A DNA stretch of 64,000 bases from Pseudomonadota bacterium (lineage in GTDB: Bacteria; Pseudomonadota; Gammaproteobacteria; Steroidobacterales; Woeseiaceae), in NCBI GenBank assembly GCA_022563195.1, contig JADFNV010000011.1:1-64000 (forward strand), read 5' to 3'. Positions 21,435-64,000 of the stretch are shown here, piece after piece. Each line of letters opens with the position of its first letter. Position 1 is the first letter of the stretch. The notes beneath the pieces were generated by a model. It made no database searches, was not told the DNA's origin, and was given only the letters and a program-made list of their open reading frames with translations. A program made the position numbers and the translations under genes.

Positions 21435-21482
21435 GCAGGGTGCTCGTTTTGGTCAACAGATAATTCTCCTTCACGATTATTA

Positions 21483-21571
21483 TCGCCCGCATGGCGGGCT
21501 CCAACAGCGGGCTCCAACAGCGGGCTCCAACAGGGGCTCCAACAGGGGCTCCAACAGCGGGCTCCTACGAT
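21483..21571 (-). repeat. Expanded GC-rich repeat (family R) between nadD and rsfS
   Basis: A palindromic head (cgcccgcatggcgggct) is followed by six consecutive 12-13-base units of the form gcgggctccaaca, the last ending ctccta. The head and unit recur at 37132-37242, 61791-61806 and 63730-63757, where only one or two units are present. Local expansion by slippage is the likely origin. Confidence 0.8.
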
Positions 21572-21589
21572 GCTTTGTCAAAATTTCTA

Positions 21590-27743: not shown

Positions 27744-27778
27744 TCGTGCCGCCTGAGGGTTTTTCAACAGCCTGCTAG
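27744..27778 (-). repeat. Family C element, single end (copy 3)
   Basis: tcgtgccgcctgagggtttttcaacagcctgctag is the same end found at 29177-29212 and 59230-59265. No opposite end or interior is present, so this is a solo end about 35 bases long. On the minus strand it begins with the TAG that stops the membrane-protein gene at 27775. It could also act as a weak hairpin between two convergent genes. Confidence 0.75.
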
Positions 27779-28473
27779 TACGGGCCTTCGAGGTCATGGC
27801 GTCTCTTCTCGCGTCGTCGTACGGCAGCGGGCTGCGGCTCCCGGTAGGCGATCGCCTTGGCCTGATACACATATTCTATCGTGCCAATCAGCCAAAGAAA
27901 GTAGCCGATCAATTCGATGAATTCCTCGACAGCAAGTTTGACGATACGACGATAGTCGTCGCCAAGTATCGACATCCAGAGCGCTTCATGGCCAACCATC
28001 CGGACAAAAGCGAACAGGATCACCGCACCGCTGAACAGGAACGCCAGGCCCGGTGACGGCCAAACACGGCCCAACGCAATTTGCAGGCGGCGTCGCTGCC
28101 GGTAGGTGTAGGCAATCACGAAAGCGGCAGCAATCACGATCAGGACCTGCCACAGGTTATCGATCAGGTAGCGATCAAAGAAATAATCCAGCTCGCGAAT
28201 CAGAAAAACCAACGCGAGTCCGCCGAACGCAAATGCGATTGGTCGTTGGGTCGGGCAATACTTGGCGACCCATGCCATTAGCAGGCCGCAGACACCAAGG
28301 ATCAGCGACTGGATAATCTCGATTGGCGAGAACTCACTCGTACCCAAACGATCGCCTTCGTCGACAATCACGTGCAACTTGAGACTCCCGGGAAATGACG
28401 TCTCGAGCTGAGTGAGCATCCACGTAATCAACGCGACGCCGACAAAATAAAGCACGTAGCGGATCCAGACCAT
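27775..28473 (-). CDS. Integral membrane protein, unknown
   Basis: 232 residues with about seven hydrophobic segments (YVLYFVGVALITWMLTQLE, IIQSLILGVCGLLMAWVAKY, FAFGGLALVFLIRELDYFFD, VLIVIAAAFVIAYTYRQRRR, FLFSGAVILFAFVRMVGHEA, EEFIELIGYFLWLIGTIEYV). The C-terminus is basic and cytoplasmic. Conserved acidic residues inside membrane segments (ELDYFFD, EEFIELIG) may be functional. I do not recognise the family. The stop TAG is the first three bases of the repeat end described at 27744-27778. It lies 72 bases downstream of lptE on the same strand. Confidence 0.8.
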   Translation of the reverse strand: MVWIRYVLYFVGVALITWMLTQLETSFPGSLKLHVIVDEGDRLGTSEFSPIEIIQSLILGVCGLLMAWVAKYCPTQRPIAFAFGGLALVFLIRELDYFFDRYLIDNLWQVLIVIAAAFVIAYTYRQRRRLQIALGRVWPSPGLAFLFSGAVILFAFVRMVGHEALWMSILGDDYRRIVKLAVEEFIELIGYFLWLIGTIEYVYQAKAIAYREPQPAAVRRREKRRHDLEGPY

Positions 28474-28545: not shown

Positions 28546-29091
28546 TTACAACGACGAAATTTGTTTGAGTACGATTCGAACGAGGTCGTTCACGATCGCC
28601 TCGCGCATCATCGCTTCTTCGTGGGCCTTGCCAAGCACGAGATTTTCGTTGTAAGTGTAATCCCGTGTCAGCGTAATCAATTGCGGAGCAAGCAAGCGGT
28701 TCTCGCCACTAAGCAACTCATATTCGACCGAGTAATACACCTCGTATTCGGTCGGCACATTACGCGCTGACACGGACAGGACACGTTGATCCGTTTCATC
28801 GACAAGAATTGACAACGTCGCCGTGGCTTCGACCGGAGATTCAACAAGATTTACGCCGGCAGCACGCAATTGCGACCTCAATTCCCGATAAAACTGACTG
28901 TGCGTATTTTCTGTGGCGAGATACGTGCGCTCCATTTCTGCAGGATGCGTCAGCGCACTTTGCAGATGGAAGCCGCAGCCCGACAGCAATAATACGAGCA
29001 GCCATGTCAGTGTTTTAGCAGCTCGTTGAAAAATTCTGAGGCGAGTGCGAGTCAAGGCAAGAATCGGCGAACGTCGCTCTCGCCCATCCAT
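28546..29091 (-). CDS. lptE: LPS-assembly lipoprotein LptE, start inside a repeat element
   Basis: The mature protein is clear: lipobox LLLSGCGFHLQ, then a fold of about 150 residues with TYLATENTHSQFYRELRSQL and YEVYYSVEYELLSGENRLLA. LptE plugs the LptD barrel that inserts lipopolysaccharide in the outer membrane. The frame just before the lipobox (AAKTLTWLLVLLLSGC) passes directly into the family C element at 29016-29212, and no ATG, GTG or TTG lies between the element and the lipoprotein helix. Start candidates are therefore inside the element: ATG at 29091, preceded by GGAG, or TTG at 29055, giving MTRTRLRIFQRAAKTLTW, a good basic n-region. The start chosen is uncertain; the gene itself is not. 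It follows leuS in the canonical order. Confidence 0.88.
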   Translation of the reverse strand: MDGRERRSPILALTRTRLRIFQRAAKTLTWLLVLLLSGCGFHLQSALTHPAEMERTYLATENTHSQFYRELRSQLRAAGVNLVESPVEATATLSILVDETDQRVLSVSARNVPTEYEVYYSVEYELLSGENRLLAPQLITLTRDYTYNENLVLGKAHEEAMMREAIVNDLVRIVLKQISSL

Positions 29092-29209
29092 GGGCTCCGC
29101 GACATTGGGACATCCTGTCCAGCAAGCGCAGTTTACACGCCAGTACATGAGCATTTTGAGCCGATTCTTAACGCCGAATCGTGCCGCCTCAGGGTTTTTC
29201 AACAAGCTG

Positions 29210-29212
<3 letters not shown>
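29016..29212 (-). mobile_element. MITE-like element, family C copy 1, in the leuS-lptE junction
   Basis: 197 bases with imperfect terminal inverted repeats of about 28 bases: tagcagctcgttgaaaaatt at one end and, read from the other, tagcagcttgttgaaaaacc. The interior shares long blocks with 59121-59265 (for example cgattcttgccttgactcgc and acgccagtacatgagcattt). Copy 1 has about 55 additional bases that include two small palindromes (ggacaggatgtcc and gcccatggatgggc). No transposase is encoded. Its ends touch the leuS stop codon and the second codon of the old lptE signal peptide. Confidence 0.85.
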
Positions 29213-31705
<2,493 letters not shown>

Positions 31706-37083: not shown

Positions 37084-37131
37084 AAATTTAACCTGCTACG
37101 AATGAGTCATAGTTTGATCCTGGGACGCACC

Positions 37132-37242
37132 TGTTGGAGCCCGCTGTTGGAGCCCGCCATGCGGGCGATTGCCACGATGTTGGGTGGGAATCGCCCGCAT
37201 GGCGGGCTCCAACAGCGGGCCCTAACAGCGGGCTCCTACAAG
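37132..37242. repeat. Inverted pair of GC-rich repeats (family R) between miaB and sat-cysC
   Basis: Two or three units of tgttggagcccgc read one way into a palindromic head, then after about 20 bases the same head and units follow in the opposite direction (cgcccgcatggcgggctcca...). The pair forms a long potential hairpin just beyond the sat-cysC stop. It shares units with 21483-21571, 61791-61806 and 63730-63757. Confidence 0.8.
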
Positions 37243-37245
37243 TCC

Positions 37246-38958
37246 CTACCTGATAAATCCCATGGCCTCCAGTTTAACCAGTATACGATGCGCTGCCTGA
37301 TCCGGCGATATGTTAACCGTATCAATGACCATTTCGGCATTCTCAGGTTCTTCGTAGGGATCGCTGATACCTGTGAACTCTTTGATCTTACCGGCACGCG
37401 CCAGCGCATAGAGCCCCTTGCGATCGCGTTCTTCGCAAACCTCGAGCGACGTCGAGACATATATTTCGATAAAGCCACCACCAGTGCCGACGGTCTCGCG
37501 GACATATTGACGTGTACTCGCATACGGCGCGATTGGCGCACAGATTGCAATGCCGCCGTTCTTGGTGATCTCGCTGGCAACATAGCCGATTCGGCGAATG
37601 TTCAGGTCGCGGTGCTCCTTCGAAAAGCCCAGCTCGCTCGACAGGTTCTTGCGCACGATGTCACCGTCGAGGAGGCTGACCGGCCGACCGCCCATCTCCA
37701 TCAATTTGACCATCAGGGCGTTGGCGATCGTGGACTTGCCCGACCCTGAAAGCCCGGTGAAAAACACCGTAAAACCCTGTTTGTGGCGTGGTGGGTGCGT
37801 CTTGCGTAATTCGGCTACAACATCGGGAAACGAGAACCACTCGGGAATATCCAGACCTTCCTGCAAGCGACGTCGCAATTCTGTGCCCGAAATGTTCAGC
37901 ACTCGATCCTCGTCGCTGGTTTCGTCGATTGGAACGTATTGCGCACGATTTTCGGCGTAGACCAGTAACTGGAACGGCACCATGGAGATATCCAGCTCTT
38001 GCTCGTGTTCTTTGAGCAGTTCTTGCGCCTCGTAGGGCCCATAAAAGTCCTTGCCCTTGCTGTCCTGGCCCGGTCCCGCATGGTCGCGGCCAACGATTAG
38101 ATGTGTGCAACCATAGTTTTTGCGAATGATTGCGTGCCACAACGCTTCGCGCGGTCCGCCCATGCGCATGGCGAGCGGCAACAAACTGAGCATCGTCGTT
38201 TGTTCCGGATAACGGCCCAAAATTTGCTCGTAGCAACGGACGCGCGTGAAGTGATCGATATCGCCGGGCTTGGTCATGCCCACTACCGGGTGGATCAGCA
38301 AATTTGCTTCGAAATCTCGTGCGGCTCGCATCGTGAGTTCCTGGTGGGCACGGTGCATCGGATTGCGCGTCTGAAATGCAACTACCTTGCGCCACCCCAG
38401 TTTTTTGAATCGATCCCGGATTTCACTGGGCGCATCACGCAGGTGCTTGAAATCATAGTGCGTTGGCATTTCGACGCCACGCAATCGACCGCCGACATAC
38501 ACCGGATTACCTATATTTTTCATATAGTTAATGGCGGGATGTGCGTCGTCATTGGTGCCATATACGCCCCTGGCTTCAGCATCCAGATCGGGTGACCACA
38601 CGTCGCTGATTTCGAGCGTTGCGACGACGACACCTTCCAGATCGCGCAGCGCAAGCTTGTCACCGGTATTGATGCCTGCTGCGAATTCCTCTGTGACATC
38701 GAGCGTAACCGGGATCGGCCAGAGTACGCCGCTGACGAGACGCATGGTTTTGACGACCGAGTCGTAGTCTTCCTTGTTGAGAAATCCGTCCAGTGGAGAG
38801 AATGCACCGTTGAGCAGCAGCTCAATGTCGCACAGTTGGCGCTCGGTCAGATCCCAGGACGTATACTCTCGCGCAGCTTCCTTCTCGGCCACAACCTCTT
38901 CGGCCGGACAATACAAATATTGCAGCTTGCCGCCATGCGGCTCTTTAAACGCACCCAT
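37246..38958 (-). CDS. Bifunctional sulfate adenylyltransferase / adenylylsulfate kinase
   Basis: 570 residues. The N-terminal 385 residues are a homo-oligomeric (Sat-type) ATP sulfurylase: AFQTRNPMHRAHQELTMRAA contains the QxRNPxHxxH site and LIVGRDHAGPG the second nucleotide motif. From about residue 395 an APS kinase follows, with P-loop [29 protein letters not shown] and a lid-like region. The protein thus makes APS and then PAPS for sulfate assimilation or sulfation. The bacterial Sat-CysC fusion is used in place of CysDN plus CysC. No APS reductase is close by. It starts 85 bases upstream of the ssb stop on the same strand. Confidence 0.94.
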   Translation of the reverse strand: MGAFKEPHGGKLQYLYCPAEEVVAEKEAAREYTSWDLTERQLCDIELLLNGAFSPLDGFLNKEDYDSVVKTMRLVSGVLWPIPVTLDVTEEFAAGINTGDKLALRDLEGVVVATLEISDVWSPDLDAEARGVYGTNDDAHPAINYMKNIGNPVYVGGRLRGVEMPTHYDFKHLRDAPSEIRDRFKKLGWRKVVAFQTRNPMHRAHQELTMRAARDFEANLLIHPVVGMTKPGDIDHFTRVRCYEQILGRYPEQTTMLSLLPLAMRMGGPREALWHAIIRKNYGCTHLIVGRDHAGPGQDSKGKDFYGPYEAQELLKEHEQELDISMVPFQLLVYAENRAQYVPIDETSDEDRVLNISGTELRRRLQEGLDIPEWFSFPDVVAELRKTHPPRHKQGFTVFFTGLSGSGKSTIANALMVKLMEMGGRPVSLLDGDIVRKNLSSELGFSKEHRDLNIRRIGYVASEITKNGGIAICAPIAPYASTRQYVRETVGTGGGFIEIYVSTSLEVCEERDRKGLYALARAGKIKEFTGISDPYEEPENAEMVIDTVNISPDQAAHRILVKLEAMGFIR

Positions 38959-50813: not shown

Positions 50814-51197
50814 ATGATTAATAGGAGACACGCTGTAACGGCTCAGGCTGTTGTCGCGTTCGCACAGAATGGACTTAAGATTCTGGCCGATAAGTATGGG
50901 GGTGACTGCACGCTTAATGAGGTGCGTGTCATGATTCAGATCATCCGTTGCCACCTCGAAGGACGAACCTGTTACGTGACCGCACTTCACAAGGCATCCG
51001 GTATCCCCTTACCTACTGTCAGCCGGGCCGTAGCCAATCTCCAGAGCGACGGTTGGCTATCTGAACAACGAGACCCGATCGATGGTCGCAAACGCATAAT
51101 TACATTTGGTCCTCGCTCCCTGCAGAACACACCCGACGACATTGAGCGGTCGATCCAGTGGATAAACAAATTTCGTGAGCACGGCCTGCCTAACTGA
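50814..51197 (+). CDS. MarR-like winged-helix transcriptional regulator
   Basis: 127 residues from the ATG at 50814. A helix-turn-helix is clear in CYVTALHKASGIPLPTVSRA, followed by VANLQSDGWLSEQRDPIDGRKR, the recognition helix and wing with the DxRxR-like DPIDGRKR of MarR proteins. An N-terminal helix (AQAVVAFAQNGLKILADKYG) would form the dimer interface. The ligand is unknown. Its likely operator is the palindrome at 50754-50770. The stop is 8 bases from the start of the inverted-repeat element at 51206. Confidence 0.75.
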   Translation: MINRRHAVTAQAVVAFAQNGLKILADKYGGDCTLNEVRVMIQIIRCHLEGRTCYVTALHKASGIPLPTVSRAVANLQSDGWLSEQRDPIDGRKRIITFGPRSLQNTPDDIERSIQWINKFREHGLPN

Positions 51198-51205
51198 TCG
51201 CTCCT

Positions 51206-51432
51206 GGTCGATACTGTTGAAAAACTCTGTATTACGATGATCAGAAAATTCAAAGGGATTTTTCATTCGCCTGGTGCGCGAATCAAAGATCAATTGTGCC
51301 GTTCTGCGTTGCATCAGGCCGGATTTTCATGCGACTTCTGCTATCCCGTCGTACATAGAGTAAAAAATAACGCTTAATTCGCAGATGAAATCGCCATTGA
51401 TTTCAAAACAGAGTTTTTCAACAGTATCGACC
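51206..51432 (-). mobile_element. MITE-like element, family A/B copy A (227 bp)
   Basis: Perfect 25-base terminal inverted repeats beginning ggtcgatactgttgaaaaac. The interior aligns with the element at 52971-53198 when read in the opposite direction (for example ggcgatttcatctgcg versus ggcgatttcatttgcg). Short sequence just outside the repeats also resembles that outside the other copy, so the true ends may be about 15 bases further out on each side. No transposase coding capacity. Confidence 0.8.
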
Positions 51433-52945: not shown

Positions 52946-52970
52946 TCCCCACAGGTAACCGGTCGCTAAT

Positions 52971-53198
52971 GGCCGATACTGTTGAAAAACTCTGTTTTGA
53001 AAAGAGCGGCGATTTCATTTGCGTTTCAAGCGTCTTTCCTTACTCTAGATATGAGGGGAATAGTCAGAAACACATGAAAACTCGCTCGGACGCCTCTTGG
53101 AAGCCCGGAAGATCACCTTAGATTGCGCGTCTGGCACTCAAAAAACTCAATGGAGTTTTGTGGTTTCGGAGTATCGGAGTTTTTCAACAGTATCGGCC
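52971..53198 (+). mobile_element. MITE-like element, family A/B copy B (228 bp)
   Basis: Terminal inverted repeats of 22 bases starting ggccgatactgttgaaaaac. Same size and same family as 51206-51432 but with the interior in the opposite orientation. The pair flanks about 1.5 kb containing the esterase and CigR-like genes. No coding capacity for a transposase. Confidence 0.8.
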
Positions 53199-59120: not shown

Positions 59121-59265
59121 AGCAGGTTGTCGAAAAATTCTCAGGCGAGTGCGAGTCAAGGCAAGAATCGGCGAAAAAGCGCAGTGTACACGCCAGTACA
59201 TGAGCATTTTGAGCCGATTCTTAACGCCGAATCGTGCCGCCTGAGGGTTTTTCAACAGGCTGCTA
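59121..59265 (-). mobile_element. MITE-like element, family C copy 2, between rplQ and its terminator
   Basis: 145 bases. The 59230-59265 end (cgtgccgcctgagggttttt then caacaggctgcta) is identical in type to the ends at 29177-29212 and 27744-27778; the other end agcaggttgtcgaaaaattc matches the other end of copy 1 with changes. It lacks the 55-base palindrome-rich block of copy 1. Its outer three bases are the rplQ stop codon. Confidence 0.8.
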
Positions 59266-63698: not shown

Positions 63699-63729
63699 GT
63701 TAATTCCTACGCTTTTCCTGTCTCTGCAA

Positions 63730-63757
63730 TCGCCCGCATAGCGGGCTCCTACGATGG
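63730..63757 (-). repeat. Family R repeat between rplO and secY
   Basis: atcgcccgcatagcgggctc then ctacgatg; one palindromic head and one unit, the most compact form of the family. The rplO-secY gap is 71 bases, wider than in E. coli. Confidence 0.65.
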
Positions 63758-63769
63758 TTTCCTAATTCT

Positions 63770-64000
63770 TTATTCGATGCTGCCGCCAGCCTTCTGTATG
63801 GCTTCGCGTGCACCTTTCGTTACAGCGATGCCCTTGAGCTTCACTGCCTTGTCAATTTCGCCCGACTTGATGACCTTGACCTTGGAGACGAAGGCCGGCA
63901 CGAGGTTAGCTGCCTTCAGTACATCCATATCTATGACATCCGCGGTCGGAATCGCGAGTTCATGCAAACGCAATTCTGCCGTCAGGCGAGCTTTACGCGA
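63770..64000 (-). CDS. rplO: 50S ribosomal protein L15 (C-terminal part, start outside window)
   Basis: At least 76 residues are visible, ending [17 protein letters not shown], preceded by [20 protein letters not shown] and [20 protein letters not shown]. This is the C-terminal half of L15 (usual length about 145). Position before secY in the spc operon confirms the call. Confidence 0.95.

Follow-up and report, generated by a model that had tools for sequence, protein, structure and literature searches.

The Rickettsia palindromic elements, as presented in PMC10969869, are small repeats of about 150 bp that lie in frame within host genes and become fused to the protein. According to PMC5493358, the E. 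coli insertion sequence IS5 duplicates a Py-T-A-Pu target, most often CTAG, a tetranucleotide that is under-represented. For overlapping genes, PMC6728339 gives strict termination–reinitiation coupling in 13 of 14 tested pairs, which came from other organisms.

We analysed a window (the whole 64,000-nucleotide stretch of DNA) in which a small repeat occupies the junction between leuS and lptE, and compared it with genomes of the same genus. Both genes are usually held to be essential. The initial annotation had placed a repeat at 29016-29212 between them, which is borne out by its inverted ends, its copies in the same genome and the domain matches on both flanks. It had also proposed that the element supplies the start codon and the signal-peptide n-region of LptE. 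We consider the best overall explanation, at a probability of roughly 55%, to be that an IS5-type insert is tolerated in the discarded signal part of the protein and that translation would still start at a retained TTG at 29217 that overlaps leuS (Table 1).

Table 1. Features of the leuS–lptE junction and of the element inserted there (positions in the window).
Feature	Position	Strand	Remarks
leuS	29210..31660	-	816 aa, frame intact; PF00133, PF13603
leuS stop TAG	29210..29212	-	TA belongs to the target; G comes from the element end or a duplicated CTAG
Ancestral lptE start TTG	29215..29217	-	Outside the element; overlaps leuS; still in frame with lptE
lptE frame from ancestral TTG	28546..29217	-	223 aa; lipobox Cys is residue 81
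Predicted mature LptE	28549..28977	-	First codon, for the lipobox Cys, at 28977-28975; not part of the insert
IS5-type MITE	29016..29212	-	197 bp with TA at both ends; recognised from copies in the own genome and genus and from the empty site in a related genome
Central block	29072..29120	.	Contains ATG 29091; missing from the copies of about 146 bp; also stands apart from the element
Candidate start ATG	29089..29091	-	39 residues to Cys; GGAG 3 nt upstream; in a predicted inner hairpin
Candidate start TTG	29053..29055	-	n-region MTRTRLRIFQRAAK; Shine-Dalgarno-like pairing not found in the preceding 20 nt
Two more in-frame ATGs (29154, 29148)	29146..29154	-	Inside the element
Two more in-frame TTGs (29205, 29202)	29200..29205	-	Inside the element

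Without its terminal TAs the element measures 193 bp; it is a miniature inverted-repeat element, its ends are of the IS5 type, and it has inserted at the TA within the leuS stop codon. Just inside the TAs, the two inverted ends agree at 17 of their first 20 bases. Searching the window's own genome, a draft assembly of 87 contigs that is 82.65% complete and 5.24% contaminated, we found one full-length copy besides that at lptE (contig C8, 95% identity), two copies of about 146 bp without the central block (window 59121-59265 and contig C34) and a number of shorter pieces. The lptE copy differs at 9 positions from the consensus of 13 copies; the present arrangement may have lasted for some time, and some of these changes may be older than the insertion itself. 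The central block has seven other matches in the same genome, one of them partial at a contig end, and stands in tandem at a spacing of about 51 bp in two relatives (G032:C105:125461-125611 and G071:C52:14622-14768).

The 18-bp element end, allowing at most one mismatch, occurs in 17 of the 73 genomes of the genus, the window's own included. At three loci (L172, L182 and L184), matching ends enclose elements of 1287-1309 bp. The transposases of L182 and L184 scored 266 and 268 bits against NCBIfam NF033581 (IS5 family; cut-off 140) and fell below the IS1182 cut-off; the scan covered these two, and the frame in L172 is shorter. The terminal inverted repeats of the 197-bp element are thus common to autonomous IS5-family elements of the genus, and the element itself holds no transposase gene, the open frames through it amounting to 65 codons; both are features of an IS5-derived MITE. 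The search for a close transposase in the window's own, incomplete genome was negative, its best match reaching 26% over 111 aa. We also considered an origin as an IS630/Tc1-mariner MITE, an idea that comes from the TA duplication and the CTAG target, and rejected it because the transposase of full elements with these ends is of the IS5 type; the own, incomplete genome gave no match to the DDE_3 transposase domain (PF13358).

The ends pair as CTAG/CTAG in 9 of 21 cases and as CTAG/TTAG in the window copy, and duplication of either TA or a 4-bp Py-T-A-Pu would fit. CTAG is strongly depleted in the window: it occurs 28 times, where base composition would predict 245. We compared 52 distinct element ends. 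All but two present a stop triplet; among those 50, 26 terminate an open frame of at least 100 codons (four of the 50 frames being cut by the end of the locus). At window CTAG sites outside the element, read on both strands, only 7 of 50 readings close frames of that length (Fisher 1e-4, for non-independent ends drawn from several genomes, against a CTAG control from the window alone). The element is therefore often placed at gene ends, where its own TAG acts as the stop codon.

Individual ends and other repeats were also recorded. The terminal TAG of the 59121-59265 copy closes a 131-codon open frame, and a 34-bp end of the element family lies at 27744-27777, at the stop codon of a minus-strand ORF (27775-28473); the roughly corresponding place in G032 has a plain CTAG in a by-eye comparison. 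At G074:C63 (L048 1501-1697), two long flanking frames converge and both end in the terminal TAGs of an element, and at L182 1501 (G073) a full IS5-type element provides the stop of a long frame that resembles malic enzyme, a name given by eye. Short GC-rich repeats with GCGGGCTCCAACA units, partly tandem and palindromic, occur at 21469-21582, 37131-37253 and 63729-63779. Direct and inverted repeats (51191-51252 / 52956-53017 and 51344-51432 / 52971-53059) flank two ORFs (312 and 158 aa) which by eye do not resemble transposases, and the direct repeats of this set carry the GTTGAAAAACTCTG motif.

The gene downstream of the insert is the only lptE match in its assembly and encodes an LptE lipoprotein, recognised by the PF04390 domain (E 6.7e-14) and by a lipobox, LLSGC, seen in the sequence. 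Comparison of mature lptE with G032 (dN 0.049, dS 0.376) and with G074 (dN 0.041, dS 0.309) gives a dN/dS of about 0.13 in both cases; as dN is low relative to dS, mature lptE is, by this measure, conserved. The net insert, 29016-29210, is 195 bp long and corresponds to exactly 65 sense codons, free of stops in the lptE frame, which keeps the TTG at 29217 in frame across the element. Each of the other two element frames in the lptE orientation has three stops, one being the leuS TAG itself; with one of three frames open in this orientation, an in-frame fit would arise by chance, without selection, about one time in three.

As the initial annotation had noted, no ATG, GTG or TTG occurs between the element and the hydrophobic core of the signal peptide, the first in-frame near-cognate codon being a CTG at 29010. 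Its statement that the lipoprotein helix begins at the first base outside the element needs a small correction, for the first base of the Lys codon of KTLTW is the final base of the terminal TA, so that the codon begins one base inside. The residues immediately N-terminal of the core, RTRLRIFQRAA, are encoded by the element under any start listed in Table 1. Thus, the proposal that the element contributes the n-region stands as far as these residues are concerned, but the start need not come from it, given the in-frame TTG at 29217 outside.

We then turned to the relatives; those found in the named collection are all MAGs, titled, for example, Woeseiaceae bacterium or Gammaproteobacteria bacterium. 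Matches to lptE were present in 70 of the 73 genomes of the genus (own included), and 69 were taken, a 41-residue fragment at a contig edge (G060) being left out. Parsing covered 66 loci (65 relatives and the window); three further loci missed by the motif (L129, L130 and L139) were read separately, and all have the TTG and no insert. Among the 68 relatives examined, 61 have an lptE start at a TTG that lies 8 nt before the end of the leuS stop codon (58 of the 65 parsed and 3 of the 3 read separately), and the TTG is absent from this ancestral place in 7 of the 65. The ancestral arrangement reads, for example, g-TTG-TCT-AGr and gives short signal peptides such as (TTG)SRRLTLLLVLLLSSC. Relatives had been expected to show an ATG directly before KTLTW; what they have instead is this TTG, two codons before it and overlapping the end of leuS. 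In 6 of 30 loci (L020, L031, L036, L039, L040 and L046), there is no in-frame start other than the TTG.

Formation of this TTG requires GTT as the penultimate codon of leuS, a Val codon. GTT is used there in 59 of 65 relatives and makes up 16.2% of 2890 other leuS Val codons, an excess with a binomial probability of 7e-40, which is uncorrected for kinship and takes the remaining available leuS sequence as background. Because of this strong enrichment, the ancestral TTG is very probably a selected lptE start. The overlapping TTG would then be the usual lptE start of the genus and one that automatic annotation could easily miss.

An empty site with the TTG is found in G074/L079, where the junction reads GTTGTCTAGAAGACTGACATTGC, or GTTGTCTAGAAGACTGACATTGCTGCTC in fuller context; contig C67 of G074 and JADFKA010000067.1 (L079) share the two stretches that were compared. 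The flanks of this site are 93.1% identical to the window on the leuS side and 90.6% on the lptE side. The element itself occurs elsewhere in G074, at 94% identity. It is absent between leuS and lptE in G032, and a comparable insert there is lacking in all 68 relatives examined. Distances in mature lptE are 6.0% between G032 and G074 (351 nt), 10.6% between the window and G032 (432 nt) and 9.1% between the window and G074 (351 nt). G032 and G074 thus differ less from one another than each does from the window, and the simplest account of these comparisons is that the element arrived on the branch leading to the window.

Counted from the TTG position, the lipobox Cys is residue 16-44 in 66 of the 68 relatives; in the other two (L047 and L154), it is out of the TTG frame, 60 and 53 nt beyond the leuS stop. 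The same extended N-terminus in relatives without the element had been named as a finding that would speak against the initial proposal. The insert itself is present in 0 of 68, and G087 and G088 have long n-regions of other sequence that place the Cys at residues 39 and 44. By analogy with these two, which appear free of the element by eye and where internal starts are possible too, long n-regions may be tolerable. Both also have GTCTAGCAG at the leuS end, like the element, and older insertions were considered there, but inspection by eye revealed no convincing element end.

On the reading that we favour, a non-autonomous IS5-family element inserted at the Py-T-A-Pu of the leuS stop codon, which adjoins the second codon of lptE, leaving a TAG stop for leuS and adding 65 sense codons between lptE codon 2 and the hydrophobic core. 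Ribosomes finishing leuS would reach a stop at an unchanged place and could still initiate at the overlapping TTG. Translation would continue in frame across the element, yielding a pre-LptE with a long n-region that is basic near its end and is followed by an unchanged hydrophobic core and lipobox. Signal peptidase II is expected to remove everything N-terminal of the lipobox Cys. As the added residues precede this Cys, the mature LptE would be unchanged after cleavage, and the insertion would be tolerated by virtue of its location in the discarded part. Starts within the element, ATG 29091 above all, may supplement or replace TTG 29217. With the ancestral TTG preserved in its overlap with leuS and in frame, lptE can do without a new start; in our judgement, the element is not needed as a source of the start codon and is a less likely one than the retained TTG. 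Initiation outside the element, which the initial annotation had itself named as refuting its proposal, is accordingly the option that we hold more likely.

Predicted RNA features bear on the choice of start in both directions. The predicted accessibility around TTG 29217 at 25 °C is 0.24, a value shared by the corresponding site of the empty-site relative (0.24). Ahead of the TTG, the strongest anti-Shine-Dalgarno pairing is -5.7 in the window and -6.4 in that relative, about 20 nt upstream in both. Against use of this TTG stand the 81-residue signal segment, which is unusually long; the element RNA, predicted to fold into a very stable hairpin (-97.8 kcal/mol, z -7.9) immediately after the codon; and the distance of its Shine-Dalgarno pairing compared with the close GGAG at 29091. 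The seven parsed relatives without the TTG and the one-in-three chance of an in-frame fit count against the favoured reading too. A second possibility, a tentative one to which we give clearly less credit, is that lptE translation now starts within the element, most likely at ATG 29091 with a 39-residue signal peptide, and that the ancestral TTG is unused in practice. This ATG is in frame and reads GGAG CCC ATG, with a predicted anti-Shine-Dalgarno pairing of -5.8 and a mean unpaired probability of 0.39, higher than the 0.24 at TTG 29217; its distance to the Cys resembles those from the TTG in G087 and G088. However, its spacer is short, both the ATG and the GGAG fall within the predicted inner hairpin, the codon sits in the block that shorter copies lack, and the intact TTG at 29217 makes a new start unnecessary.

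The initial annotation had named ATG 29091 (with its GGAG) and TTG 29055 as starts in the element; both exist, but the list was incomplete, as 29205, 29202, 29154 and 29148 are also available. That lptE starts at TTG 29055 or at any of these four seems improbable. They are in frame, and TTG 29055 would give the signal peptide that looks most usual by eye, but anti-Shine-Dalgarno pairing in the 20 nt before it is predicted at +0.3, and most of the site is predicted to be paired (0.23 unpaired). Ribosome bypassing of the element hairpin is unnecessary with the frame open and was set aside. Least probable is an assembly error, or damage to lptE in this lineage: the assembly is a draft and the other full copy lies at the end of contig C8, but the order of the leuS and lptE flanks is that of the relatives, the junctions fit an IS5-type target, 95% identity to the C8 copy is too low for one copy placed twice, and the lptE frame is intact with a low dN/dS.

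The open frame at lptE also raises the question of whether the family as a whole is kept translatable. Of 13 copies, 11 have an open sense frame (against a simulated mean of 7.0; P 0.016, uncorrected for kinship) and 9 an open antisense frame (simulated mean 6.75, P 0.15); in 11 the insert length is divisible by three. Substitutions are flat across codon positions (90/73/94, P 0.23). We did not accept coding selection on the family, the openness signal being weak in one sense and not found in the other, with no codon-position bias. A coding insertion was recognised only at lptE, flanking ORFs having been listed for 7 of the 13 copies. It is a long shot that this IS5-type MITE family homes to CTAG stop codons, restores the upstream stop, keeps one frame open on both strands and holds its length to a multiple of three. 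If it did, such a repeat would be translated in frame and harmless at overlapping gene pairs, and so adapted to tight operons.

The locus illustrates that a mobile repeat can settle in the leuS–lptE overlap and break neither gene: the stop is kept, and the added peptide falls within a signal sequence expected to be cut off. In its ends, which are common to full elements of the genus, and its Py-T-A-Pu target with CTAG as the commonest form, as PMC5493358 describes for E. coli IS5, the element resembles IS5-family insertion sequences and their MITEs; a difference is that the window's own, incomplete genome yielded no close transposase. With the overlapping gene pairs for which coupling is known, the junction shares, in most of the relatives examined, a downstream start that falls inside the last codons of the upstream gene. 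It differs in its TTG start and 8-nt overlap from the ATGA or TGATG types named in PMC6728339. The likeness to the Rickettsia palindromic elements described in PMC10969869 is that of a small repeat inserted in frame in a host gene. Unlike in Rickettsia, the insert here lies in a signal peptide predicted to be cleaved and is the one coding insertion recognised, 26 of 50 stop-reading ends close long frames, and there is no codon-position bias. In-frame insertion of small bacterial repeats is already known from Rickettsia, and the lptE case is a neat but ordinary instance of it.
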